Source: Phycisphaerales bacterium
Lineage (GTDB): Bacteria > Planctomycetota > Phycisphaerae > Phycisphaerales > UBA1924
Assembly: GCA_029260495.1 (NCBI GenBank)
Contig: JAJDDD010000009.1
Span: 124,001 to 188,000, forward strand
Length of the DNA: 64,000 nucleotides
Direction of reading: 5' to 3'
This document shows positions 38,233-51,999 of the stretch, one piece after another. Within the stretch, counting starts at the first letter, position 1; each line of letters begins with the position of its first letter. The position numbers and the translations under genes are program-made. The notes beneath the pieces are model-generated. The model did no database searches. It had not been told where the DNA came from and worked only from the letters and a program-made list of their open reading frames with translations.

Positions 38233-41200
38233 CTAGAGGCAAGGCCCCCAGGCGCCAAGGATCAAGCCGAGATCGAAGCCGTTGATAATCCCGTCGTTGT
38301 TGAGATCGCCGATCGGATCGTTGGAGGTCCAGGAGCCGAGCAGATTCGCCAGATCGATCGAATCAACTTCACCATCGCCATTGATGTCCCACGGGCATGC
38401 GTTGAGCGGGATGAGATTGGTGGGCGTGTCCACAGATCCCTGGTTATCGAGGGTTCGGTAGTAGACCTGGCAGGCGCCTGTGATGAGCTGGGCGCCGGGC
38501 GCGATGAAGAGCGTGTCGACATACAGCGCTTCGCAGACGGCTTGGCCGAGGGTGTCATTGTCGTGGTTGTCAACGAGTTCAACGGTGACGGCTGCTGGGC
38601 TGACGCGGAGCGAACCGAGCGGGAAGCGCCCGGGAGCATTGCGGTCGAGGCCGGCGAGGGTAGCTCCGATGTTCTCGCTCATGACCTCAAAGCGTTGTGT
38701 TGAGCCGCTGATCGCGACTGTGAAGACTTCCGCAGCGCTGAGATCAAACCGGGTCGCATCGTCGATGGCGATGTTCACGTCGGCGCCAAGTCGCAAGCGG
38801 GCGCCGGCTTCACTAAGCAAGAGCTTTGCAGCGGCGCCGGGGGAAAAGTCACCAAGCACGGTGACGCCTGCGGGAATCACGTTTTCACCACGCCCCGATC
38901 CGTCGGAAAGAATGGCGCCCGATCCGCTGATGGCGCCAAGGACTGTGAAGACGCCATTTTGCACGGTGATGGTTCCGTCGTTGGTGAGATCACCAATGAC
39001 ACCGGTGTCGTCGACGACGAACATGTCGCTCTGGTTGTCTGTCTGCGCGTTGATGGAGCCCCAAAGGAACATCTGGCCGGTTGGCGCCTGATTGACGAAG
39101 GTTGCGGCGTTAAGGACGCCATCGAGCATCGTGACAATGCCCGTGTTGGTTGCAGCGTTCGGGAACGATAAGAGTGACAAAGCGCCAATCTGCGTGGCGC
39201 CGGCAAGTTGAGAACCCGACGGAGCCGTGATCTCAAGGATTGAAGCCGGAGCGGTGACAAGGGCGCCGGAGTTGAGCAACGAGAATGTTTCGCCGCAGAT
39301 TTCAGCATGATCGCCAATAGGGACATTCGTATCGCCGCGCAGTGTGACTGGTTGTGAGGCTGCGGCAGCGAGCTTTGAGTTGTCCGCAAGCGTGAGGGCG
39401 CCGCCCACCGGTTGGATCAAGGCGCCTGAGCTGTTCAGCGTGATGGCCTTTCCGAGAAAGTCAATGACAAGCTCAGCGTCAAAGAATCCTGGTGATGCGA
39501 GGATTGCATCATTGTTCACTGCGAGTCCGATTGCGTTGGCGATTGAGGGATGGGTTGTTCCCTGCGTGACGTTCAGCACATTCGCGAAGAACTCGTGAGC
39601 GCCCATGTCGACAGTTGCGGTTGTGTCAAAGTTTCCATCGACAATGCGCATGACGCCGGCGAAATCGAGCGGAAGTGATTCTGCAGTGTTGCCATCCTCG
39701 TCAAGATCGGCGACGTCTGCTGGGACCTCAAGGTTGTCTCCCGCGTCGATCGCTGGTGAAAGAGCGCCAAGGCGAACATCATCATCAATCGTGCCAATCG
39801 TGTTGTCGAGCCCGTCTGCATCAACAAAGAGCGGATCGAGCGCGATGTTGCCAACGCCCGCGCCGGTCCAGCCTCCCTGCACGTCACTATTTGAAACCGT
39901 GATCACAGAGCCGAATGCGCTGATCTGGGATTCCGGGGTGGCGCCTGACGGATCCGTGTTGTTCCAAAGGATGGCGTTGACGACGGTGGGAGAAGCGCCG
40001 CCGCCGCGACTTCCTGACTGTATGAGGATGCCACCGATGGCAGTTGACGCTGTGTTGGCTGTGATTGTTGAGTCAGCGACAGTTAGCGACGAGAAGCTGC
40101 CGACGTACGCGGCGCCACCGAAGTTTGAAGTGTTTCCAGTCAAGACGGTGTTGGTGACTTTTGCATCGCCTCCAAAGACCGCAATCGCCCCGCCGAGCGA
40201 ACCCGACGAGTTTGCATGGAAAGCGCAGGAAACAAAGTTGGCTTCAGTGTTGGCGCCGACCAGAACCGCACCGGCGGAGGAGATGGAGTGGTTGTCAATA
40301 AAGACGCAGTGTGAGAAGACCATCGCGGCGTTTTCAATCAGAGCGGCGCCACCGGAATCATGGGGGAAGGGGTTGTCGGCAAATCCTGCCTGGATTGTGA
40401 CACCATCGATCGAGCCATCATCTGCCGGTGAACTTGTCGCGATGACATGGAGCGAGTTGTCCGCGTTTCCGACAGCGTTATCGTCATCGTTGAGATCACC
40501 CGAGAGAATCGTGCGGAACAAACTGGGGTCGCGCTGGTCGGGATCAGCGGCGCCAGCGCCGGCATAGCCGCCCCGGATTGCGACGCCGGCGACGGGGACA
40601 AAGGAGGCGCCGCGATCGCCAACGGTTACACCCGGGCCCTGGTCGGGTGTGTAGACGCCATCTGCGATGCGAATTTCCAGAATGCCCATCGAGAGTCGCG
40701 CGACGGAGAGCGCTTCCTGCAGGGTTGAGAAAGCGGTGTCCCACGAGGCGCCATCCGGGTTTGCAGCGGGAGTATCTGCATCGACATGAAGCGTCGGCGA
40801 ACAGATAATCACCGAGACATCCGCGGGCGCGCTCACCGTTTGGCCGCACGAGTTTGTGATGGAGACGGTGTAGGCGCCTGCGTCGGGGAGTGAGACGGGA
40901 TCAATCGTAAGTGTCGGGCTGGTTTCGCCATCGATCGCGACATCATCGAGAAGCCATTGGAATGAAAGCGGGACATCACTCGAGGCAGTGACTGAGAGCG
41001 CGAGGGCGCCGCCCAGGCAGACAGCCTGCGAATCAGGCTGGTCGGTAATCAGCGGGACATCGGCAACGACGAGACTCGCTGCGGCGCTTGTGACGGAGCC
41101 GCAGCTGTTACTGACGAGGACGTCGTAGTCTCCTTCGTCGCCTTCACTTGCGCTGGGAATGTTGAAGGAGGCATCGGTGGCGCCGGTGATGTTGACACCA

Positions 41201-43380
41201 TCAAGACGCCACTGGAATGAAAGCGGGCCGGGGCCTGTCGCGATGACGGAGAAGTCTGCAGGTTGGCTGGCGCAGACCGTCGCGCCGGTGGGAGGCGTTG
41301 TGACGACCGGAATCGTGAGGACGGTTAGCGATGCAGCGGCGCTTGTGATCGAATCACATCCGTTGTCCACGACGACGTCGTAGGCGCCCGCATCGATCGG
41401 CGCGACGCTGGCGATATTGAATGTGCTGTTGGTGGCGCCGGTGATGTTCACGCTGTCCTTGCGCCATTGGAACGTGAGATCGGGTCCGTTCGCGGAGACG
41501 GAGAAGCTCGCCATCTGTCCCTGGCATACCGAGATGGGGTCCGGATCGTCGGTGATGGTCGCAGCTGGTTTGATGGTGATGATGGCTGGCTGGCTTGTGA
41601 CATCGCCGCAACTGTTTGTGACGATGACGTCATACGGCCCGACATCTGCGGCGCCGAAAGCTGGGATCATAAGCGTTGAGTTGGTTTCATCGAGGATGTT
41701 GACGCCATTGAATCGCCACTGAAAGGTGAGCGGGGCGGCGCCATTTGCGCTGACGGAGAGAGTCACCATGTCCCCGTCACAGATCTGATCGCCAAAGGGG
41801 TGTTGCGTGATGATCGGCGCTGTGTCGACAGCTAATGTCGCTGGCCCTGCAATTTCACTGTCGCAGGAAGTTGAGACGACGACATCGTAGGCGCCGGCGT
41901 CGCTGGGCTGGGCGTTGGTGATGGTGAAGGTGTCGTTTGTCGCGCCGGGAATGTTGGCGCCGTTGAAGCGCCACTGATAGCTAAGGACTTCGGTTGACGT
42001 TGCGTTCGCGGTGAACATGGCTGTAGCGCCTGCGCAAATAGTTGCGGAAGCAGGCCCTGCGACAATCTGCACACTGGCCCCGACTGTGATCGAAGCTGCT
42101 GCGCTGGTTGTTGAGCCACACGCGTTGGTCACCACGCAGTCATAACTTCCAGCGTCTGCGGGGACGGCGGACGCGATGTTGAGCGTGCTTGCTGTCTCAT
42201 TGAGGATGTCGACGCTGTCCTTGCGCCACTGGAAGGAGAGCGGCGCTGTTCCTGTCGCGGTGATGGAGAGCGCGAGGGGATCTCCCTCGCATACGGATTG
42301 GCCGGCGGGGTCTTGCGTGATTGCGGGCGCCAGATCGATCGTGAGAGCCGCCATCGCACTGGTGGCGGACCCGCATGCGTTGGTGACGACGCAGTCATAG
42401 GCGCCGGCGTCGTTGGCGTCGACGGAGGCGATATTGAATGTGTCGGCGGTGGCGCCGTTGATTTCAACGCTGTCCTTGCGCCACTGGAAACTCAGAGCTG
42501 CGTCACCTGTCGCGACGACGGAAAAGCTGGCCATCTGACCTTCGCATATTGTCAGCGGGTCCGGATCATCTGTGATTGTTGGCGATATGCAGGCGCCGCC
42601 GGTGTCGGGAGTGAAGGTGATCACGTGATCGGTGACGCCGAATTCGGGTTCGGGATTCTGCGTGGTGATCGTAAACTGTCCTTCAAAGATCTCACCGACA
42701 ATGTCGCTTGTTGCGGTCGGTGGTGGATTCTGGGTGTACACCTGCGCACCCGGATCAAGACCGACGACGGTGAGCTGAGCGAGGAAGACCTCAAAGACGC
42801 CGGGTGAAACTTCGACGGCGGCGCCCTGGAGATTTGGTGGATTAATGTTGGCCCAGGTTCCTTCGATGAAGTCGTCGCCATCGCCGAAGCGATCGACAAA
42901 ACGGAACTTGGGATCGGTGAAGGTGGTGTCGCCGTTCATGGAGTCTTTGAGACCCAGATCCACGAACGTGTCAAAGACGAGTGTTGGAACGATGCCGAAC
43001 ACTCCGCTGTTGGGGGCGGTGTCTTCACCGAACGGCGGCGGGAACTGAAAGTAGTGCGCGCCTTGATGCCGAGGCATGCTTGTAGCGGGATTGGTCTTGG
43101 AGAGGCCCCAGCCGAGTCCGGGTCCATCTTGAAGGACGCTGAGGATCGTGTTGACGGAGTTTCCGCTGGGGTCGAAGGGGTCGGTTCCGGGCCCGTTGAA
43201 GCGCGCATAGAGATTGAAGACGCGCACGCCTTGCCCGGTTGGATCGATCAGTGTTAAGTCTTCTGCTGTGGGTTGGGCTTTGTCCTCTCGGATTTGCACA
43301 CCGAGGAAAACGGCCGAGGCGTTTTCCACCACGAGCGCAAGCGCACACACAGCCGCGATAGCGATTAAAAACCGTCTCAT
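38233..43380 (-). CDS. Giant secreted protein: shared N-domain, seven Ig-like repeats, beta-helix, EF-hand-like tail
   Basis: A 1715-residue exported protein. The signal peptide ends near residue 23. Residues 24-262 form a domain also found in the gene at 51187-51999. About 265-853 hold seven Ig-like repeats of about 84 residues, each with LSFQWR(K/L)D or close variants and a Tyr-Asp-x-Val-Val turn, and paired Cys. A right-handed beta-helix-type region follows (LHVDADTPAANPDGASWDTA onward, with ADGVYTPDQGPG), then a long beta-rich part (1250-1640). The C-terminus has two DINGDGEVDSIDLANLLGSW-type EF-hand-like units ending in LGAWGPCL. It is probably surface-located and adhesive. GGAGGATG precedes the ATG at 43380. 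No enzyme motif was seen. Confidence 0.9.
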   Translation of the reverse strand: MRRFLIAIAAVCALALVVENASAVFLGVQIREDKAQPTAEDLTLIDPTGQGVRVFNLYARFNGPGTDPFDPSGNSVNTILSVLQDGPGLGWGLSKTNPATSMPRHQGAHYFQFPPPFGEDTAPNSGVFGIVPTLVFDTFVDLGLKDSMNGDTTFTDPKFRFVDRFGDGDDFIEGTWANINPPNLQGAAVEVSPGVFEVFLAQLTVVGLDPGAQVYTQNPPPTATSDIVGEIFEGQFTITTQNPEPEFGVTDHVITFTPDTGGACISPTITDDPDPLTICEGQMASFSVVATGDAALSFQWRKDSVEINGATADTFNIASVDANDAGAYDCVVTNACGSATSAMAALTIDLAPAITQDPAGQSVCEGDPLALSITATGTAPLSFQWRKDSVDILNETASTLNIASAVPADAGSYDCVVTNACGSTTSAAASITVGASVQIVAGPASATICAGATAMFTANATSTEVLSYQWRFNGANIPGATNDTFTITNAQPSDAGAYDVVVSTSCDSEIAGPATLAVDTAPIITQHPFGDQICDGDMVTLSVSANGAAPLTFQWRFNGVNILDETNSTLMIPAFGAADVGPYDVIVTNSCGDVTSQPAIITIKPAATITDDPDPISVCQGQMASFSVSANGPDLTFQWRKDSVNITGATNSTFNIASVAPIDAGAYDVVVDNGCDSITSAAASLTVLTIPVVTTPPTGATVCASQPADFSVIATGPGPLSFQWRLDGVNITGATDASFNIPSASEGDEGDYDVLVSNSCGSVTSAAASLVVADVPLITDQPDSQAVCLGGALALSVTASSDVPLSFQWLLDDVAIDGETSPTLTIDPVSLPDAGAYTVSITNSCGQTVSAPADVSVIICSPTLHVDADTPAANPDGASWDTAFSTLQEALSVARLSMGILEIRIADGVYTPDQGPGVTVGDRGASFVPVAGVAIRGGYAGAGAADPDQRDPSLFRTILSGDLNDDDNAVGNADNSLHVIATSSPADDGSIDGVTIQAGFADNPFPHDSGGAALIENAAMVFSHCVFIDNHSISSAGAVLVGANTEANFVSCAFHANSSGSLGGAIAVFGGDAKVTNTVLTGNTSNFGGAAYVGSFSSLTVADSTITANTASTAIGGILIQSGSRGGGASPTVVNAILWNNTDPSGATPESQISAFGSVITVSNSDVQGGWTGAGVGNIALDPLFVDADGLDNTIGTIDDDVRLGALSPAIDAGDNLEVPADVADLDEDGNTAESLPLDFAGVMRIVDGNFDTTATVDMGAHEFFANVLNVTQGTTHPSIANAIGLAVNNDAILASPGFFDAELVIDFLGKAITLNSSGALIQPVGGALTLADNSKLAAAASQPVTLRGDTNVPIGDHAEICGETFSLLNSGALVTAPASILEITAPSGSQLAGATQIGALSLLSFPNAATNTGIVTMLDGVLNAATFVNQAPTGQMFLWGSINAQTDNQSDMFVVDDTGVIGDLTNDGTITVQNGVFTVLGAISGSGAILSDGSGRGENVIPAGVTVLGDFSPGAAAKLLLSEAGARLRLGADVNIAIDDATRFDLSAAEVFTVAISGSTQRFEVMSENIGATLAGLDRNAPGRFPLGSLRVSPAAVTVELVDNHDNDTLGQAVCEALYVDTLFIAPGAQLITGACQVYYRTLDNQGSVDTPTNLIPLNACPWDINGDGEVDSIDLANLLGSWTSNDPIGDLNNDGIINGFDLGLILGAWGPCL
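40822..42588 (-). repeat. Array of seven Ig-like coding repeats (about 252 bp each)
   Basis: Seven tandem repeats of about 84 codons inside the giant gene. DNA identity is locally high, for example TCCTTGCGCCACTGGAA recurs, which marks homologous units able to recombine and change copy number. Boundaries are approximate. Confidence 0.8.
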
Positions 43381-43733
43381 CTCATCCTCCGAAAAGCTTT
43401 ACAGAACGTGCAGGTTAACCGCACACAAGCCCTTGGCCAAGCGGTATTTGCATCTTCCTTGCGAAGTCGTTGCGCTGGGTCCAGCGAACCTGTCTGAGGA
43501 GGGTGAGGGGCACATTATCAGACCCCTCGACCCAAGTTTTTCCCAGCCGGCGAGCCGGCGGGGGAGTCTTCAGCCGAATCCGTTCGGGTTTCGCCTGGCG
43601 GTCCGGTTGGTGAAACTATCGGCGTTCTCCAGGGTACACGCCCTGAGTAGGTCCACGCGTCGCGCGAAGTGGGGGCTTCCTCGACGCGCAGCGCCGCGAT
43701 GAGAAACAAGACTGCAGATGCAAGGAGACAGCC
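43381..43733 (+). other. 353-base divergent intergenic region
   Basis: This lies between the giant gene (minus) and the Tat epimerase gene (plus) and should hold both promoters. It contains a GC-rich inverted element (GCCGGCGAGCCGGC, near 43551) and, at the right end, AAGGAG (43722-43727) for the plus-strand gene. I see no supported gene or RNA here. Confidence 0.5.
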
Positions 43734-44924
43734 GTGAGTATGACCCGCAGATCATTTATCCATACATCCGCAGCTGCGGGCGCGCTGGGGCTTGGCTTCT
43801 TGCCTCGCGCCAAGGCATCAGAGTTTGCTCAGGGGAAAACTGAACAGCCTTTGAAAATCCTCATTCTGGGCGGGACGGCCTTCCTTGGGCCTCACATCGT
43901 GCGCACCGCCATCGATCGCGGGCACACCATGACGCTCTTCAACCGCGGCAGAACCAATCCGCATCTCTTTCCAGACCTTGAGAAACTTCGCGGCGATCGC
44001 GCCAGCGATCTCAGCGCGCTGGAGAATCGTGAGTGGGACGCCGTGATTGACACGTCGGCCTACTACCCGCGCGTTGTGCGCATGATTCACGAGGTGCTCG
44101 GCGATGCGGTTGGTCATTACACACTCGTTTCGAGCATCTCAGCGTATGGACAGATGCCTGAGCCTGGCATGGATGAAAGTGCGCCTGTCGCGACGATTGA
44201 AGATGAAACGACCGAGCAGGTCACCGGCGTCAGTTATGGACCACTCAAAGCGCTCTGTGAGCAGTCGGCGGAGAAGGCCTGGCCCGGGCGCACGTTCAAT
44301 GTTCGCCCGGGACTGATTTCGGGGCCTGGCGATCCGACGGATCGGTTCACGTATTGGCCCGCGCGGATTGCGCGCGGCGGGGAGGTGATGGCGCCCGGGG
44401 AGCATACAGATCCCGTGCAGCACATTGATGTGCGCGATCTGGCGGAGTGGATCATCTACGCGATTGAGAATCAAGTCGCGGGCATCTACAACGCAACGGG
44501 CCCGAACCTTGGTATGCCAATGGCTGAGTTGCTCTATGGATGTAAGGGCGCGCTGGGTGGTGATGCGCATTTTACCTGGGTTTCGGCGGAGTTTCTTGAA
44601 GAGCATGGTGTGGCGCCGTGGCAGGAAATGACTGTGTGGATTCCGCCGACGAGCGAAATGGGCGGCCTTGGCGCGGTGAATGTCGAGAAGGGGCTGCGCA
44701 ATGGGCTGGTGGTTCGACCGCTGGCTGAGACAGCCCGCGACACAGTGGACTGGCTTCGTGATCAGCCGCAGGAGCGACAAGAGCAGCAGGCGCGGGGGCT
44801 TAACCGAGAAACCGGGCGAGGTGCGGGTATTTCCCTTGAGCGGGAAACGGAGCTTCTTGCTGCATGGCGCAGCCGTGATGAGCAGGCAGATGTCGGAGAA
44901 GAGTCAACTGACGAGCACGGCTAA
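43734..44924 (+). CDS. Tat-exported NAD-dependent epimerase/dehydratase-family protein
   Basis: A Rossmann-fold protein of 396 residues with a Tat signal (MTRRSFIHTSAAAGALGLGF, cut near RAKA). The NAD-binding motif is GGTAFLGPHI, followed by TLFNRGR and the catalytic-region YGPLKALCE. It belongs to the extended short-chain dehydrogenase type often called isoflavone reductase-like or NAD-epimerase. Tat export of a folded cofactor-bound enzyme fits. AAGGAG lies 6 bases before the GTG at 43734; ATG 43740 is the alternative. It is 23 bases from the next gene, so they form an operon. Substrate unknown. Confidence 0.88.
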   Translation: MSMTRRSFIHTSAAAGALGLGFLPRAKASEFAQGKTEQPLKILILGGTAFLGPHIVRTAIDRGHTMTLFNRGRTNPHLFPDLEKLRGDRASDLSALENREWDAVIDTSAYYPRVVRMIHEVLGDAVGHYTLVSSISAYGQMPEPGMDESAPVATIEDETTEQVTGVSYGPLKALCEQSAEKAWPGRTFNVRPGLISGPGDPTDRFTYWPARIARGGEVMAPGEHTDPVQHIDVRDLAEWIIYAIENQVAGIYNATGPNLGMPMAELLYGCKGALGGDAHFTWVSAEFLEEHGVAPWQEMTVWIPPTSEMGGLGAVNVEKGLRNGLVVRPLAETARDTVDWLRDQPQERQEQQARGLNRETGRGAGISLERETELLAAWRSRDEQADVGEESTDEHG

Positions 44925-44947
44925 GCTGCGAGGATCCGCCACACTGT

Positions 44948-46369
44948 ATGTCCTCTGAGCGCATACAAGACGAAGGTCTGGTCGTTGTTCGCGCTGGATG
45001 GCGGCGTGCGCTCAAGATTGCGCCTGGAGAAGGCTCGACGGTGCTTGTCTCGGCGCTGTTCTTCTTTTTTATTCTCGCAGCCTATTACATGCTCATGCCA
45101 GTGCGCGATGAGATTGTCACGCGCGAGGTGCGCGATGTTCCCTGGCTGTGGACGGGGACATTCATAGGCACACTGGCTGCGGCGCCTTTGTTCACGGCGC
45201 TGGTGTGCGTGCTTCCCCGGCGCCTTTTTATACCGATCACATACCGATTTTTCGCTGTCAATATGTTAATTTTTCTCGCGCTCTTTTTGAGTCTTGAAGG
45301 CGAAAACCGTCTATGGCCAGCTCGGATATTTTACATCTGGCTGAGTGTTTTTAATCTCTTCGCTGTTTCTATTTTCTGGGCATTTGCCTCGGATATTTTC
45401 ACGACTGCAAGAAGCAAGCGGCTGTTCGGCTTGATTGGCGTTGGGGGCACCGCGGGGGGCGTTGTGGGCGGCCTTGTCACCAAATCGCTGCTCGCGGTGG
45501 AGAACATTGATGTCGCGTATGTCTTTGTGGCCGCTGCTATTTCACTGGAACTTGCTGTTCGATGTTTCAAGTGGCTTGCTCGTGCGCATGATGTGGCGCC
45601 TCGGAAATTGGCTGAATCGAAAGGTTGGACGAGGGCGCGGTCGTTCCTTCCCGATGCTTCTCCCGGCGGGATGCTCGCGGGCCTGCGGGCTCTTGCTCAT
45701 TCGCGCTACCTGATGGGGGTCGCAGCCTACATTTTGCTGCTTTCGCTGACTGCGACAGCGATGTATCTCCAGCGCGTGCAGATCATCGGCGCGGAGTTCC
45801 CCGGTGATACGTCGGCTGCCCGTCAGGATCGCACGAATGCTCTGAACAATATTTACCTACTGACGAACATCGCAACGATTGTCATCCAATGCTTCTTTAC
45901 GGGGCGCATTATCCAGCGAGTTGGAGTTGGCTTCACGCTTGTTCTGCTGCCGGCTATTTCATTCGGTGCGATAGCGCTTGTTGCGGCGGCGCCTGTTTAC
46001 TCGGCGCTTGCGATCGCTGAAATTGCGCGCAGAACATCAAACTTCGCCCTCGCCCGCCCAGCGAGAGAGACGCTATATACGGTTGTTTCTCGCGAGGAGC
46101 GATACAAAACCAAGAGCGTAATTGACACCGCTGTCTATCGCGGTGGTGACATGATGTGGGCGTGGTTTTTTGAAATCATCCAATCCGGGCTCGCCACGAC
46201 AGCTCTTAAATTCGCTGCGGTGATTGCGATCGGTGCGGCTCCGCTGGCGGCGCTTTGGGGTGTATTGGGTCTGGCTCTTGGTCGGCGTCAAACTCAACTT
46301 TCCCGTGAACAGGACGCTGCAGAAATGAGCATACAGTCAAATGTTTCAGTTATTGAGGTGGAGGCCTGA
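44948..46369 (+). CDS. MFS-type permease related to ATP/ADP translocases
   Basis: A 473-residue membrane protein with about 11-12 hydrophobic segments. SALFFFFILAAYYMLMPVRD at the N-terminus and RLFGLIGVGGTAGGVVGGLV match the NTP/NDP-exchange-like MFS group (Tlc relatives) found in many free-living bacteria, where function is unproven. ARRTSNFALARPARETLYTV with a conserved basic patch (EERYKTKSVID) is also typical. It follows the Tat epimerase gene; its 3' end overlaps truB by 20 bases on the other strand. Confidence 0.8.
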   Translation: MSSERIQDEGLVVVRAGWRRALKIAPGEGSTVLVSALFFFFILAAYYMLMPVRDEIVTREVRDVPWLWTGTFIGTLAAAPLFTALVCVLPRRLFIPITYRFFAVNMLIFLALFLSLEGENRLWPARIFYIWLSVFNLFAVSIFWAFASDIFTTARSKRLFGLIGVGGTAGGVVGGLVTKSLLAVENIDVAYVFVAAAISLELAVRCFKWLARAHDVAPRKLAESKGWTRARSFLPDASPGGMLAGLRALAHSRYLMGVAAYILLLSLTATAMYLQRVQIIGAEFPGDTSAARQDRTNALNNIYLLTNIATIVIQCFFTGRIIQRVGVGFTLVLLPAISFGAIALVAAAPVYSALAIAEIARRTSNFALARPARETLYTVVSREERYKTKSVIDTAVYRGGDMMWAWFFEIIQSGLATTALKFAAVIAIGAAPLAALWGVLGLALGRRQTQLSREQDAAEMSIQSNVSVIEVEA

Positions 46370-47057
46370 GCAATGACTGGTCGAACGGATCGGAAACTTT
46401 GTCTAGTTCAATAGCGTCATCAATGCCATATGGGTCGACCAATGTTCGACGCAGGTTTTTGAGTCGGCCGCCTGTGCCGAGCGATTCCCCTAAATTCCGC
46501 GCCAGACTGCGAATATAGACGCCCTTTCCGCAGCGCACATCCAGCGTGGCAATGGGCCATTCATACGCGATCACCGTGATGTTGTGAATGACAACCGGAC
46601 GGGGCTCAAGCTCCAATGTTTCTCCCGCGCGAGCCCGCTTGTATGCGGCTTTTCCATCTATCTTCAAAGCAGAATAGGCCGGCGGGCGCTGGAGAATATT
46701 TCCTATAAATTGTTTGGAGGCTGCTTCTACATCCTCCCGCGTCGGCGTGCGCTTCACCGCGAGAGCCGTCGTTTCGCCTTCCATATCGTCTGTGGTTGAG
46801 AATGCGGAGAGGTCAACCTCGGCGATGTACTTCTTTTCTCCGGCCATGAGTTTGGGGACGGCTTTGGTCGCGGCGCCGAGACAGACGATAAGGACGCCAG
46901 TCGCGAGGGGATCAAGTGTGCCTGCATGGCCGACTTTGGCGCCGCCGGTGCGCGCGCGAACAAGTCGGCAGACCGCGGCGCTTGTCATGCCAAGGGGCTT
47001 GTCAATGACAAGCAGGCCGTTGAGATCGGGGCGTTGATTTCGCGGCTTTCGACCCAT
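46350..47057 (-). CDS. truB: tRNA pseudouridine-55 synthase TruB
   Basis: TruB makes pseudouridine at position 55 in the T loop of tRNAs. It has 235 residues, shorter than E. coli TruB (314) and without a C-terminal PUA domain. GLLVIDKPLGMTSAAV and GHAGTLDPLATGVL (catalytic Asp49) are present, with YIAEVDLSAFSTTDDMEGE and RCGKGVYIRSLARNLGE. It is read alone on the minus strand, convergent with the permease. Confidence 0.95.
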   Translation of the reverse strand: MGRKPRNQRPDLNGLLVIDKPLGMTSAAVCRLVRARTGGAKVGHAGTLDPLATGVLIVCLGAATKAVPKLMAGEKKYIAEVDLSAFSTTDDMEGETTALAVKRTPTREDVEAASKQFIGNILQRPPAYSALKIDGKAAYKRARAGETLELEPRPVVIHNITVIAYEWPIATLDVRCGKGVYIRSLARNLGESLGTGGRLKNLRRTLVDPYGIDDAIELDKVSDPFDQSLLRPPPQ

Positions 47058-47236
47058 GACTGAATGCTGAAACGGACCTTTTGGTCAGGTGAAAAATATG
47101 ATGATTCGGTTGGAGGGAGGCAGGAATTGATGTTGGGCGGGTGTGATCTCGCGATAGACTACGGGCTGCCTGAGAGGCGTGCCTGGGGTTGATCGCGGTG
47201 TTGAGTGGGTAAATACGCTTGTGAGGAGATCATCAC

Positions 47237-48223
47237 ATGTTTGGAAAGTCTATTTTCGCTTTGGCTGTCTCATGCGCCTGCAGTCAGTTGGCTCTTGTCG
47301 CTCATGCAGAGCAGGTGACGTTTCCCATTACAATGGCGGGTCCTGAGGAAGTGCCTGGCCCGGGCGATGCAGACGGGACGGCGTCTGGGACGATTACGTT
47401 TGACACGGTGACCAATGAGATATCCTGGAACTTCACCTACGCGGACATTGTCGCTCCGACGGCGATGCATATTCACGCGGCGCCGGCGGGCGCCGGTGCG
47501 GGCGTGTTCGTTGGGCTTGGTGTTGCGACCAGCGGCGGCGCGGGCACGCTGATTAGCTCTGTGACTACTTCGCCGGCGAACATCAGTGCGATTCTTGCGA
47601 ATCCGATTGGTTTTTATGTCAACATTCATAACGGGCCGTTCCCGAGCGGCGCCATTCGCGGGCAGATTCCGGCGATGTTCGAGCTCATGATGACCGGTCC
47701 CCAGGAGTTTCCCGGGCCGGGCGACGCAGATGGAACTGCGATGGGCATGCTTGGGTTTGACACCGGAAATAACGAAATCTTCTGGGATTTCACCTATGCA
47801 GACATTGCTGCTCCCACCGCGATGCACATTCATAACGCGCCAGCGGGGATGTCGGCGGGAGTCTTTGTCGGGCTCGGCGTCGCGACGAGTGGCGGCGCGG
47901 GCACGTTGATCAGTTCAGTGACAACCACCCCAGCCAACATCACTGCGGTGCTGGCTGCTCCGACGGATTTTTATGTCAACATTCACAATGGGCCGTTCCC
48001 GAGTGGCGCGGTTCGCGGTCAGATTGAGGACGCGGCCGCATCCTGCACAGCGGACCTCAACGGCGATGGGAGTGTGGGCAGCGGCGATCTTGCCAACCTG
48101 CTTGGGAGCTGGGGACCATGCCCGGCGCCGCCCGCGACATGTGCGGCTGACTTCAGCATGGACGGAAGCGTAGGCAGTGGCGATCTCGCGACGCTGCTGG
48201 GAAGCTGGGGGGCGTGCCCGTAA
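47237..48223 (+). CDS. Secreted protein with two CHRD domains and EF-hand-like C-terminus
   Basis: A 328-residue exported protein. A signal peptide (residues 1-24) is followed by two tandem CHRD domains (about 26-146 and 147-267), each with GPEE/GPQE(V/F)PGPGDADGTA, a TYADI(V/A)APTAMHIH segment and FYVNIHNGPFPSGA(I/V)RGQI. CHRD domains are named from chordin; their bacterial role is unknown. The C-terminus has two copies of a DLNGDGSVGSGDLANLLGSW-type unit, the EF-hand-like tail seen on other secreted Phycisphaerae proteins. GTGAGGAGA precedes the ATG. Confidence 0.92.
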   Translation: MFGKSIFALAVSCACSQLALVAHAEQVTFPITMAGPEEVPGPGDADGTASGTITFDTVTNEISWNFTYADIVAPTAMHIHAAPAGAGAGVFVGLGVATSGGAGTLISSVTTSPANISAILANPIGFYVNIHNGPFPSGAIRGQIPAMFELMMTGPQEFPGPGDADGTAMGMLGFDTGNNEIFWDFTYADIAAPTAMHIHNAPAGMSAGVFVGLGVATSGGAGTLISSVTTTPANITAVLAAPTDFYVNIHNGPFPSGAVRGQIEDAAASCTADLNGDGSVGSGDLANLLGSWGPCPAPPATCAADFSMDGSVGSGDLATLLGSWGACP

Positions 48224-48404
48224 TCTGCTGCCCTGATTGAAATGGGCTGACGAAGTGAGGCAGAGAAGTCTGCCAACAGGAAGAAGACTGGCGGCGGGAG
48301 CGGTTTTGAATAGAGGAGGCCGCCCCGCCGACGCATGACAGAAGGCAGCGCTGACGATACCCTCGCCCAGCCCGTTTCCCATGCGCTTTTGATGAGAAAC
48401 GATT

Positions 48405-48491
48405 GGAGAGGTGTCCGAGTGGCTGAAGGAGCGGCACTGGAAATGCCGTATACGCTTATGCGTATCGGGGGTTCGAATCCCCCCCTCTCCG
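48405..48491 (+). tRNA. tRNA-Ser (anticodon GGA)
   Basis: An 87-base class II tRNA. The acceptor is GGAGAGG/CCTCTCC, the anticodon stem CGGCA/TGCCG with loop CTGGAAA (anticodon GGA, reads TCC/TCT), a long variable arm (TACGCTTATGCGTA) and the T arm GGGGG TTCGAAT CCCCC. The 3' CCA is not encoded. Confidence 0.96.
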
Positions 48492-48658
48492 CTTTTGATT
48501 CTTTGTTCGTCACAGGCGATGGTTTTGAACGTCTGCCTGCAGTTACGAGCGATCCTTTACATATTGTCAGGCGCGGCCCCTTGAGTGCGGGAGAGTGTGG
48601 CATTGGCTGGGGCGTGTGATGATGCAGTGAGTTGTGGGAGATACACTTCTTGCAGCCA

Positions 48659-48732
48659 GCCCCGGTAGCTCAGTTGGATAGAGCAGCGGTCTTCTAAATC
48701 GCAGGTCGGAAGTTCGAATCTTCCCCGGGGCG
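48659..48732 (+). tRNA. tRNA-Arg (anticodon TCT)
   Basis: A 74-base cloverleaf. The acceptor is GCCCCGG/CCGGGGC, D arm GCTC...GAGC, anticodon stem GCGGT/ATCGC with loop CTTCTAA (anticodon TCT, reads AGA/AGG), and T arm GGAAG TTCGAAT CTTCC. No encoded CCA. It lies 37 bases before recR. Confidence 0.95.
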
Positions 48733-48769
48733 TTCTTTGTGGTAGGCGGGGGCGCCCTATGATTGGGCT

Positions 48770-49447
48770 GTGGAAGACATTCGCGCACAATCTGGTGATC
48801 AATCGCGGGGCGTTGTCGCGCGAGGGTCAGCCTATCCCGAGTCGGTGGATCGGCTGATCGAGGCGCTCTCGAAGCTGCCGGGGATTGGCAGGCGGTCGGC
48901 GGAGCGGCTGGCGTTTCATGTGCTCAAGTCGTCGGCTGAGGAGGCGATGCAGCTTTCCGAGGCTGTTGCGGATGTGAAGCAGAAGATCCGGCCGTGCGGG
49001 GTGTGCTTTAGTTTGTGCGAAGGGGAGGAGTGCGGGATTTGCGCGGACGGTCGGCGGGATCGGAGTTTGGTTTTGGTGGTTGAGCAGCCGAAAGACCTTT
49101 TGGCGCTGGAGCAGACGGGGATGTATCGGGGTGTGTACCACGTTCTGATGGGGCGGATCAGCCCGCTGGATGGCGTCGGGCCTGGCGATCTGACGACGGA
49201 GCGATTGATGGAGCGTGTACGCCAGGCTGAAGCGAACTGCGGGAGCGTGCGTGTGGAGGAGGTGGTGTTGGGGCTGAACCCAACGCTGGAGGGGGATGGA
49301 ACGGCGCTGTATTTGAGTCAGCAGCTTGAGGCGGCGGGGGTGCGCGTCACAAGACTGGCGCGGGGGCTTCCCACGGGCGGGCAGCTTGAATACGCGAGCA
49401 AGGCGGTGCTCGCGGATGCAATCCAGGGCAGGCAGTCGGTGCGGTAA
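48770..49447 (+). CDS. recR: Recombination protein RecR
   Basis: RecR works with RecF/RecO to load RecA at gaps; 225 residues. The N-terminal helix-hairpin-helix is KLPGIGRRSAERLAFHVL. The zinc finger is CGVCFSLCEGEECGIC. The Toprim domain has LVVEQPKDLLALEQTGMYRG, then MGRISPLDGVGPGDL. The C-terminus has GLNPTLEGDGTALYL and TRLARGLPTGGQLEY. The start is a GTG at 48770, adding about 20 residues to the usual N-terminus. It is followed 57 bases on by rpoN. Confidence 0.96.
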   Translation: MEDIRAQSGDQSRGVVARGSAYPESVDRLIEALSKLPGIGRRSAERLAFHVLKSSAEEAMQLSEAVADVKQKIRPCGVCFSLCEGEECGICADGRRDRSLVLVVEQPKDLLALEQTGMYRGVYHVLMGRISPLDGVGPGDLTTERLMERVRQAEANCGSVRVEEVVLGLNPTLEGDGTALYLSQQLEAAGVRVTRLARGLPTGGQLEYASKAVLADAIQGRQSVR

Positions 49448-49504
49448 GGTGGAGGGGGCGCTGGTGAAGGCGCTCGCTGGAATGTGAAAGCGCGAAGGAG
49501 CGCC

Positions 49505-51055
49505 ATGCGGTTTGACACGTCTCAACATATGAAGCTCGGCCAGCAGATGAAGCTGGCGCCGCGGGTGATCCAGTCGATGGAGATCCTGCAGCTGTCGCTG
49601 CCGGCGTTGGAGGAGCGGATCGAGCAGGAGCTTGAGTCCAACGTCGCGCTTGAGGCGGTGGAGCCGGGCGCGGAGGCTGGGGATGTTGAGCAGGCGCAAC
49701 GTGATGAACGGCGCGATGACACCGCCAACGAGCGCGAGCTGACGATTGATGAAACGGGGTCAAACGACTTCGAGCGGTTGGAGTCGATGGAATCTTCCTA
49801 CAGCGAGGCGTTTGACAACGAATATTCAGCGGCGAGTGTGACGCGATCTTCAGAGTATGAGCCACGCACCTATTCCGCGTCGCGGCATGGCGGCGAGCGC
49901 GACGGGAAGATGGACGCGATGGCGAACACCGCGGCGCGCGGGGCTTCGATGCACGAGGTGTTGCTCGATCAGTGGCGCCTGGCGGAGGCGCCGGATGAGG
50001 TGCGTCGGATCGGGGAGTTGTTGATCGCGCATATCGATGATGACGGGTACATCCGCACGGAGCTGGAAAAAATCGCAGAGCTTGCAGCCTTGGATGGCGT
50101 TGAGCCGGAGATCGAGAATGTTGAAAAAACGCTGAAGATGTTGCAGTGGGCGCTGGAGCCATCGGGTATCGCGGCGCGGGACACGCAGGAGTGTTTGCTG
50201 CTCCAGATTGATGCGATTGAGCTTGAGTCTGAGGAGGACGATGGAGCATTGGTGCAGTTTGTGCGCAAGTTGATTGTCGAGCACCTGGATGATCTGGCGC
50301 AGAATCGGCTGCCGAAGGTTGTGGAAGAGACGGGCGAAGAGATGGAGCGGATCAAGGAGGCGATGGAATGGATGCACCAGCTCGGAGTTTCGCCGGGCCG
50401 GATGTTGAGCGATGAGACGCCGCCTGTGATTGTGCCTGACGCTGCGATTGAATATGACGATGAGCATGATGTGTATGTGCCGCGGATTTTGGATTCACGT
50501 CTGCCTGCGTTGCGGATTAGCGCGGCGTATTCTGCTATGGCTAAGGATAAATCCGTTGATAAATCCGCCCGTGATTTTGTGCGGACGAACCTGACGAATG
50601 CGCAGTGGCTGATTGACGCAGTGGGGCAGCGGAGCCATACGCTTTTGCGCGTGTTGAATGTTGTAGCTGAAGCGCAGCGTGATTTTTTCGATCTAGGTCC
50701 GCAGGCGCTGAAGCCGCTTCCGATGACGCAGGTTGCGGATCAGCTGGGTGTGCATGTCGCGACGGTGTCGCGGGCTGTTGCGGGGAAGCATGTGCAGACA
50801 TTGCGCGGCGTCATGCCGCTTCGGCGGTTCTTCTCAGGAGGAACGCAAACCGACAGTGGGGAGGACATGAGCTGGGCAGCGGTGAAAGCGGCGCTGAAAG
50901 AAGTGGTGGATGGGGAAGATAAGAGCAAGCCGCTCAGCGATGAATCGCTGGCGGAGGGGCTGCGCGAGCGCGGGATTGACATTGCGCGGCGGACGGTGGC
51001 GAAGTATCGGGGGCAGCTCAACATACCGCCGGCGCGGATGCGGCGTGAATATTAG
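49505..51055 (+). CDS. rpoN: RNA polymerase sigma-54 factor RpoN
   Basis: Sigma-54 directs polymerase to -24/-12 promoters and needs AAA+ activators. It has 516 residues from the ATG at 49505, with GAAGGAG just upstream. Region I is Gln/Leu-rich (MKLAPRVIQSMEILQLSLPA). Region II is acidic and variable (about 60-130). The core-binding domain follows, then the HTH (MTQVADQLGVHVATVSRAVA) and the C-terminal RpoN box (ARRTVAKYRGQLNIPPARMR). The RpoN box differs from the usual form at a few positions but keeps the key residues. No activator gene is nearby. Confidence 0.96.
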   Translation: MRFDTSQHMKLGQQMKLAPRVIQSMEILQLSLPALEERIEQELESNVALEAVEPGAEAGDVEQAQRDERRDDTANERELTIDETGSNDFERLESMESSYSEAFDNEYSAASVTRSSEYEPRTYSASRHGGERDGKMDAMANTAARGASMHEVLLDQWRLAEAPDEVRRIGELLIAHIDDDGYIRTELEKIAELAALDGVEPEIENVEKTLKMLQWALEPSGIAARDTQECLLLQIDAIELESEEDDGALVQFVRKLIVEHLDDLAQNRLPKVVEETGEEMERIKEAMEWMHQLGVSPGRMLSDETPPVIVPDAAIEYDDEHDVYVPRILDSRLPALRISAAYSAMAKDKSVDKSARDFVRTNLTNAQWLIDAVGQRSHTLLRVLNVVAEAQRDFFDLGPQALKPLPMTQVADQLGVHVATVSRAVAGKHVQTLRGVMPLRRFFSGGTQTDSGEDMSWAAVKAALKEVVDGEDKSKPLSDESLAEGLRERGIDIARRTVAKYRGQLNIPPARMRREY

Positions 51056-51186
51056 GTTTGCCTGCGTTCTGCCATGAACAGGGCAACCTCGTGCAGCATC
51101 TCCAATCACATGTGAAATATGGCGGTTTCCCCTTGTAGTCGTCCTTTTGGTGGATAAAATTGCGGGCGCACAAGGGAGTTTAAAAA

Positions 51187-51999
51187 GTGAGATACAAACT
51201 GGTTGTTATCATGGCCGGTGTCGGCTTCTGGTCGCCTGCTGCGCTTGGCAGGTTTCTCAACATTGATTTTCGCGAGGATAAGACGCTGTCTGCGGCCGCA
51301 TCAGCCCTGCTGCCGGCTGGTGCGCGAACGTTCAATCTGTATGCCATTTTCGACGGCGGGGTTGAAGACGACATTCGCAACACTGTGCTGGCGACTGGGA
51401 ATGATTTTACATTCTTTGAAATCAACAAATTTTTCGGGGTTCATACAGATGCGGAGTTTTTCAACACAGAAGCGCCATTTGGAGGCGACAGGGCGCCGAA
51501 CAGCGGTTTCTTCGAGTTCGATCCGACGCTGGAGTTTGACACATTCGTCACGATTGGCGTGAAGGACAGCGCCATCGAAGACACCACGGTGCTTGACCCT
51601 TCGTTCGGCATGGTCGACGGGAATGGCGACGGACATATTGATCGGATCACAGGGGGATGGGCGAATGGCAATCCACCAAATTTGCAAGGCGCTCCCGTGT
51701 TCAATGCGGAGACAGGCGAGTGGGAGACGGTGCTGGCGCAGTTGACGATCGTTGGGCTTGATGCCAATGCGGATCTGGGGCAGCGAGGAGCGTTTGGAAG
51801 CCCATTATCTCAAGGATGGCACGGCGAGATATTCTCCGGCCAGCTTGATCTCTTTCGGCGGGGGGATAGCAGCCTTGGTGAAGATCCTGCTGTTGGGTTC
51901 ACGATGCTTATGACGACACCTCCGGCGCCGGGAACCGGGGCGCTGTTTGGTGTCGCGGCAGCAGGCATGTCCCGTCGGCGACGAATCGCTGTCGGTTGA
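51187..51999 (+). CDS. Secreted PEP-CTERM-like protein sharing the N-domain of the giant protein
   Basis: A 270-residue exported protein, starting at a GTG at 51187 with GGGAG upstream. After a signal peptide, residues about 22-225 align with residues 24-240 of the 1715-residue protein: IDFREDK, GARTFNLYAIFDG, GGDRAPNSGFFEFDPTLEFD, TFVTIGVKDS, GGWANGNPPNLQGAP, LAQLTIVGLD and GEIFSGQ. The C-terminus is PAPGTGALFGVAAAGMSRRR plus basic residues, a PEP-CTERM-like sorting signal (Pro motif, hydrophobic helix, basic cluster) recognised by exosortase systems. Its function is unknown; secretion and surface attachment are likely. Confidence 0.85.
   Translation: MRYKLVVIMAGVGFWSPAALGRFLNIDFREDKTLSAAASALLPAGARTFNLYAIFDGGVEDDIRNTVLATGNDFTFFEINKFFGVHTDAEFFNTEAPFGGDRAPNSGFFEFDPTLEFDTFVTIGVKDSAIEDTTVLDPSFGMVDGNGDGHIDRITGGWANGNPPNLQGAPVFNAETGEWETVLAQLTIVGLDANADLGQRGAFGSPLSQGWHGEIFSGQLDLFRRGDSSLGEDPAVGFTMLMTTPPAPGTGALFGVAAAGMSRRRRIAVG

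Follow-up and report, generated by a model that had tools for sequence, protein, structure and literature searches.

Two secreted proteins with a common N-terminal domain

The window analysed here, a stretch of 64,000 nucleotides from a Phycisphaerales bacterium (assembly GCA_029260495.1, contig JAJDDD010000009.1, positions 124,001 to 188,000 of the forward strand), encodes two predicted secreted proteins, P1 (1715 residues) and P2 (270 residues), which carry the same kind of domain at their N-termini (Table 1). BLASTP joined residues 1–241 of P1 and 1–225 of P2 in a single strong alignment with 99 of 244 positions identical (41%, E = 1e-33); against the P1 N-terminus none of 500 shuffled versions of P2 scored above 25.4 bits, compared with 116 bits for the real sequence, confirming the similarity that the first-pass annotation of this DNA had pointed out. 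A family profile (A2) scored 184.9 bits on the P1 domain (E = 6.6e-56) and 185.1 bits on the P2 domain (E = 5.7e-56), each sequence being itself part of the profile, and when all six frames of the window were scanned with this profile, nothing but these two domains scored, the next best match having an E-value of 7.6.

In P1 the shared domain is followed by seven immunoglobulin (Ig)-like repeats, a long C-terminal region and a dockerin. The Ig repeats, already proposed in the first-pass annotation, were recovered with Pfam as seven stretches each for Ig_3 (E = 1.8e-62) and I-set. Of the EF-hand-like tail described there, the tail itself stands; we assign it instead as a GC-type dockerin, with two calcium-loop-like repeats visible by eye and a match to NF041540 that stayed below the cut-off of 29 bits both when P1 was scanned alone (21.1 bits) and in the genome scan (28.4 bits, E = 7.2e-6). 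The choice-of-anchor Q model NF041518 gave 17.9 bits on P1 (cut-off 25). At the end of P2, the anatomy of the proposed PEP-CTERM-like sorting signal fits by eye, with scores of 15.9 bits for TIGR02595, just short of its cut-off of 16, and 14.2 bits for TIGR03382 (cut-off 15.85).

Table 1. Features of P1 and P2, in positions of the window
Feature	Position	Strand	Basis
P1, 1715-residue secreted protein	38233..43380	minus	Open reading frame call, Pfam and NCBIfam domains
P1 signal peptide, residues 1–23	43312..43380	minus	Predicted by eye from the translation
Shared domain of P1, residues 25–249	42634..43308	minus	Family profile and BLASTP to P2
P1 Ig-like repeats, about residues 267–855 (boundaries approximate)	40816..42582	minus	Pfam Ig_3, I-set
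P1 choice-of-anchor Q-like stretch, residues 1201–1264	39589..39780	minus	NF041518, below cut-off
P1 GC-type dockerin, residues 1662–1711	38248..38397	minus	NF041540, below cut-off
P2, 270-residue secreted protein (shared domain and PEP-CTERM-like tail)	51187..51999	plus	Open reading frame call, BLASTP, NCBIfam
P2 signal peptide, residues 1–22	51187..51252	plus	Predicted by eye
Shared domain of P2, residues 22–233	51250..51885	plus	Family profile
PEP-CTERM-like tail of P2 (P-x-P, hydrophobic stretch, RRRR)	51922..51987	plus	TIGR02595, TIGR03382, below cut-off; two exosortases in the genome

No Pfam or NCBIfam family was found over the shared region of P1 or P2, the sole library trace over this region of P2 being EF-hand_5 below its cut-off (E = 0.04). 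Thirty-nine relatives searched against both libraries at E ≤ 1 gave isolated single weak matches only, and among 131 diverse relatives at E ≤ 0.01 none matched an NCBIfam model and one a Pfam family (SSURE, marginal, E = 0.0096). Matches of the 131-row profile to PDB sequences (MtrB/TRAP, Sel1, cadherin 23) were partial and did not agree with one another (best E = 0.0022); they were put down to chance, and kinase EF-hand regions returned by phmmer with P2 (E of 0.04 and above) were attributed to a D/N/G-rich insert of some members. Literature searches with signature strings of the domain (DSWVTIG, DTYVTIG and longer ones) found no description of it, and those for 'choice-of-anchor' with PEP-CTERM and for 'GC-type dockerin' found nothing. 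In the literature searched and in the versions of Pfam, NCBIfam and PDB used, the domain is undescribed, which supports its interpretation in the first-pass annotation; no clear match to a named family appeared for P1, P2 or the 39 and 131 relatives.

About 3 kb from P2, the plus strand encodes a secreted protein of 328 residues (47237–48223) with two near-identical repeats, which we take to be CHRD-like, and two dockerin-like repeats; NCBIfam gave no match to this protein at E 0.01.

Spread of the domain and its C-terminal anchors

The domain belongs to a large family that spans two bacterial phyla and carries interchangeable anchors, and its initial framing as a feature shared by two proteins was too narrow. 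A single-sequence search with P2 matched 8 of 101 genomes, including that of the window (G000); of these, G047 matched in the PEP-CTERM-like tail only, and this match, like one at L008 in the single-sequence searches, was dropped as a tail match. One genome (G053) held 14 matches to P2, mostly in two gene arrays. A 39-row profile (E ≤ 1e-4) found the domain in 40 of 397 genomes from the class and in 15 of 392 from the phylum, and because eight candidates were scored per genome in these scans, the copy numbers obtained are lower bounds. A scan of named genomes matched two contigs, one from a metagenome-assembled genome (MAG) titled Flavobacteriales (L051) and one from a Phycisphaeraceae MAG (L052); the genomes behind them, both of which supplied rows to the profile, contained 25 (G793) and 14 matches, respectively. 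Within the order of G793, 59 of 199 genomes matched, many of them with all 16 scored candidates. A further 40 plus 60 stretches were retrieved, and the profile then found 367 domains in 240 proteins, a count in which overlapping loci repeat some DNA, with 345 distinct domains after a coverage filter. Three scans of viral contigs found no relative.

The largest proteins with the domain reach 4,421 residues and contain up to five copies, and domain genes also occur as arrays of neighbouring genes. Both features would suit a spacer or filler that has a structural part in surface fibres and no specific ligand. However, three positions are almost invariant over the two phyla (D in 212 of 218, W in 201 of 214 and Q or R in 211 of 211 sequences) and most planctomycetal members have a single copy placed directly on the anchor, both of which argue against a spacer, a role that we consider quite unlikely. 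In the giant proteins at L051, L129, L133, L135 and other loci of the G793 order, many short GCTD..ACNY....DDGSC repeats lie between the domain copies.

The window genome itself (3.2 Mb, 22 contigs, 96.8% complete) encodes at least seven proteins with the domain. The single-sequence search located seven places, namely P1, P2, a gene at C5:60997–61839 and a tandem group where contigs C5 and C6 meet; one further match was discarded (PEP-CTERM-like tail only). C5 and C6 very probably adjoin, since the end of the former and the start of the latter share 113 identical bases within one domain copy, and as two complete copies follow the one spanning the joint, there are probably three consecutive copies, of which one is split by the assembly. 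The profile search added a C17 protein of 1,044 residues with two domain copies and dockerin stretches, and two-copy proteins of similar length are present in G009 and G041. Such two-copy proteins, similar to one another and 1014 to 1092 residues long, lie in three genomes at L163:4826–7957, L164:4122–7397 and L165:2463–5504, the dockerin stretches being confirmed for that at L163.

The C-terminal anchor varies by lineage, being PEP-CTERM-like, dockerin-like or a type IX secretion system (T9SS) tail. This was seen in a census of 183 complete, distinct proteins made with tail patterns of our own devising: among 100 planctomycetal proteins 72 tails were PEP-CTERM-like, 17 dockerin-like and 11 neither, and among 83 proteins of the G793 order 32 were T9SS-tail-like, 29 dockerin-like and 22 neither. 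Stricter earlier patterns had given 71, 16 and 13 for the Planctomycetota and 24, 18 and 41 for the G793 order, in the same sequence of classes; by eye, most of the 33 unclassed tails resemble one of the anchor kinds, and most of the 22 from the G793 order resemble one of the two kinds seen there. Library models run on 119 tails (E ≤ 0.1) agreed in kind with the census (PEP-CTERM 33–35, Dockerin_1 21, GC dockerin 15, Por_Secre_tail 7). The domains that NCBI calls choice-of-anchor are characterised by the occurrence of one domain with different sorting signals, and the shared domain resembles them in being exported on proteins whose C-terminal sorting or anchoring device differs; unlike them, it is matched by none of the existing choice-of-anchor models in P1, P2 or the relatives scanned, and the weak choice_anch_Q match of P1 sits elsewhere in that protein. 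Proteins at L083, L084, L085 and L095, from another planctomycetal family, have ends without a recognised anchor, and three of them finish in similar sequences, FN.(S/T)NG....TW, which may be a further C-terminal module. As in the PEP-CTERM/exosortase substrates described in the available text of PMC1569441, P2 and 71 others of the 100 planctomycetal members end in P-x-P, a hydrophobic stretch and an arginine-rich segment, and the window genome encodes two exosortases (PF09721, 175.9 and 159.2 bits, cut-off 25.7); unlike in that system, the shared domain is also found on dockerin and T9SS proteins.

Predicted fold and possible relation to cohesins

The domain is predicted to fold as a jelly-roll beta-sandwich similar to those of cohesins and of surface adhesins, an arrangement that the model of a distant member and inferred contacts support but do not prove. 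Because an AlphaFold2 model of P2 built from 12 sequences had a predicted local distance difference test (pLDDT) score of 49.6, it was left out of the fold search; the model of a short distant member from L052 was all-beta, with medium confidence (pLDDT 63.4, predicted template modelling score 0.61). With the latter, the top Foldseek match was TTHA1873 (1.1e-3), after which type II cohesins were frequent: among the 50 matches listed, 15 name cohesin and three more are scaffoldin complexes. VIA-align returned BBS7 (Z 8.6), the cohesin-like module 2jh2_B in third place (Z 7.8, 116 aligned, 3.8 Å), fungal and Gram-positive adhesins at Z of about 6.5–7.7, including Als adhesins and collagen adhesins (6.5–7.0), and the chitin-binding domain 2cwr (Z 6.6). 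Jelly-roll sandwiches include carbohydrate-binding modules. A carbohydrate- or matrix-binding head by which cells or secreted proteins are attached to polysaccharide would be consistent with the collagen-adhesin and chitin-binding matches and is also favoured by PEP-CTERM sorting, which the available text of PMC1569441 describes as exopolysaccharide-associated; however, Pfam carbohydrate-binding families matched none of the 131 members, and we regard this possibility as somewhat doubtful.

Direct coupling analysis (338 sequences, effective number 224, 179 columns) indicated antiparallel ladders for the strand pairs 2-7 (9.4), 8-9 (5.8), 1-2 (5.8), 3-5 (5.4), 3-6 (5.2), 4-7 (5.2) and 3-7 (5.0), with strand labels that were assigned after the contacts had been seen. 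The ladder 3-8 was marginal (4.9), its register being parallel in the full set and antiparallel in the Bacteroidota subset. In 15 column-shuffled sets the best of 36 strand pairs scored at most 4.8; a stricter control with 20 shuffles over all positions reached up to 5.7 for antiparallel and 5.1 for parallel ladders, so that only 2-7, 1-2 and 8-9 pass this bar. The ladders 2-7, 1-2, 8-9 and 4-7 recurred in Planctomycetota-only and Bacteroidota-only subsets, mostly with lower scores. Cohesin sheets have the orders 9-1-2-7-4 and 8-3-6-5, as given in the available text of PMC5429695. With labels assigned post hoc, the order 1-2-7-4 agrees and 8-3-6 less firmly, so that five of the seven cohesin adjacencies (1-2, 2-7, 4-7, 3-6 and, marginally, 3-8) lie above the shuffled control; the pair 9-1 is unsupported (3.3), 5-6 falls below the control (4.0), and 8-9 appears as an extra, which would place strand 9 beside strand 8 and not strand 1. 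Like cohesins (PF00963), the domain is a predicted extracellular jelly-roll sandwich and sits in multi-copy proteins with a terminal dockerin or anchor; unlike them, it is longer (about 170–230 residues) and lacks a sequence-profile match. PF00963 matched none of the 131 members at E ≤ 0.01, and hhalign of the domain against 50 cohesin stretches returned a probability of 0.4% over 14 columns, compared with 99.7% for a positive control of cohesin against cohesin, whose rows overlap by construction; against a thin cohesin profile hhalign found nothing. Since sequence profiles fail and the strand pair 9-1 is not seen, we do not assign the domain to the cohesins.

Alternatively, the domain could be a divergent cohesin that serves as the receptor for GC-type dockerins, the anchored copies (P2 and T9SS-tailed proteins) holding dockerin-bearing enzymes and the dockerin-bearing copies (P1 and the multi-copy giants) serving as adaptor scaffoldins. 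In favour of this alternative are the strand adjacencies, the recurrence of type II cohesins among the Foldseek matches, the cohesin-like module in VIA-align and the distribution of dockerins. In the G793 order, GC-type dockerins were found in 54 of 199 genomes, 52 of which also have the domain, and 52 of the 59 domain genomes have dockerins, the other seven having the domain alone (Fisher p = 1.6e-37, ignoring shared ancestry and assuming that both searches covered the same 199 genomes, as their handles agree). None of 44 sampled dockerin-bearing frames (21 from the G793 order, 23 from the window genome) carries the domain; drawn mostly from the head of the lists, the frames are no random sample, since there are domain proteins with a dockerin tail. 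One frame (L293), whose end is not dockerin-like, may be misframed. Enzyme families were matched in six of ten proteins scanned, nine of them dockerin-tailed proteins of our choosing and one a domain protein: multicopper oxidase, endonuclease I, peptidyl-arginine deiminase, vanadium chloroperoxidase-like, subtilase and M14 carboxypeptidase. The window genome contains 52 GC-type dockerin stretches (E ≤ 0.001), yet no PF00963 cohesin over the cut-off, the best match (22.7 bits, cut-off 24.1) lying in another protein at C6:279801. Against a divergent cohesin stand the hhalign result and the presence of the strand pair 8-9 in place of 9-1, as well as the fact that the co-occurrence figure takes no account of ancestry. 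Moreover, in the window's own family all 61 listed genomes have GC-type dockerin matches and the domain is known in seven, the profile search having covered part of the 61, and the dockerin-rich genomes G023, G006, G034, G049 and G024 gave no domain score in the 39-row profile search. On balance we think it unlikely that the domain is a divergent cohesin.

The protein at C6:279801 (L118:1321–2067) contains the sole cohesin-like module found in the window genome, below cut-off and followed by dockerin-like repeats, and is a candidate partner for the many dockerins of that genome. Domain genes also lie near dockerin genes at L010 and L009, a proximity that we do not count as evidence because the profile misses several obvious dockerins; at L010:5992–9375 a domain gene stands divergently beside one for a dockerin-tailed M14 zinc carboxypeptidase (L010:7021–9375, Pfam E = 8.9e-73). 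A cohesin/dockerin complex with peptidases has been proposed for freshwater planctomycetes as the 'planctosome' (available text of PMC6461901). Dockerin-tailed peptidases of a planctomycete, including the M14 carboxypeptidase just mentioned, are a likeness to that system; the planctosome as presented in that text relies on recognisable cohesins, of which the window genome has none over the cut-off, and the text makes no mention of the shared domain.

Proposed role of the domain

Taking these results together, we consider it probable that the domain, which belongs to a large unnamed exported family with interchangeable anchors, is a jelly-roll module displayed at the cell surface for binding or docking. 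The shared region would be one module of this family of beta-sandwich domains, shown outside the cell by means of the lineage's own anchor: the PEP-CTERM-like tail in P2, a type IX secretion tail in Bacteroidota members and, in P1, a dockerin that would end a long stalk, after the seven Ig repeats, as anchoring device. Within the envelope or the extracellular matrix, the module itself would most likely serve as a head for binding or docking: every copy would recognise a partner molecule, and the remainder of the protein would hold the head at the surface. Binding as its activity is what we infer. Several points weigh against this reading: the direct model of P2 failed, so that the evidence for the fold comes from a distant relative and from inferred contacts; Foldseek with the L052 member gave no match at E ≤ 0.001; and all but two VIA-align scores lie below Z 8, where the tool warns of a mere common arrangement.

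With matches in 59 of 199 sampled genomes of one order, the domain is abundant, yet it is missing from the two main domain libraries searched; once named, it would allow hundreds of giant surface proteins to be annotated. The domain might even represent an unrecognised cohesin lineage that GC-type dockerins bind as their missing receptor, both in Bacteroidota and in some Planctomycetota, and that builds non-cellulosomal surface complexes, an idea to which we give a low probability. If it were true, P2-like proteins would anchor such complexes, P1-like or giant multi-copy proteins would be their adaptors, and the proteins collected would be dockerin-tailed oxidases, nucleases, deiminases, haloperoxidases and peptidases. 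The domain makes it testable what is bound by GC-type dockerins, which occur by the dozen in genomes that lack a recognisable cohesin.

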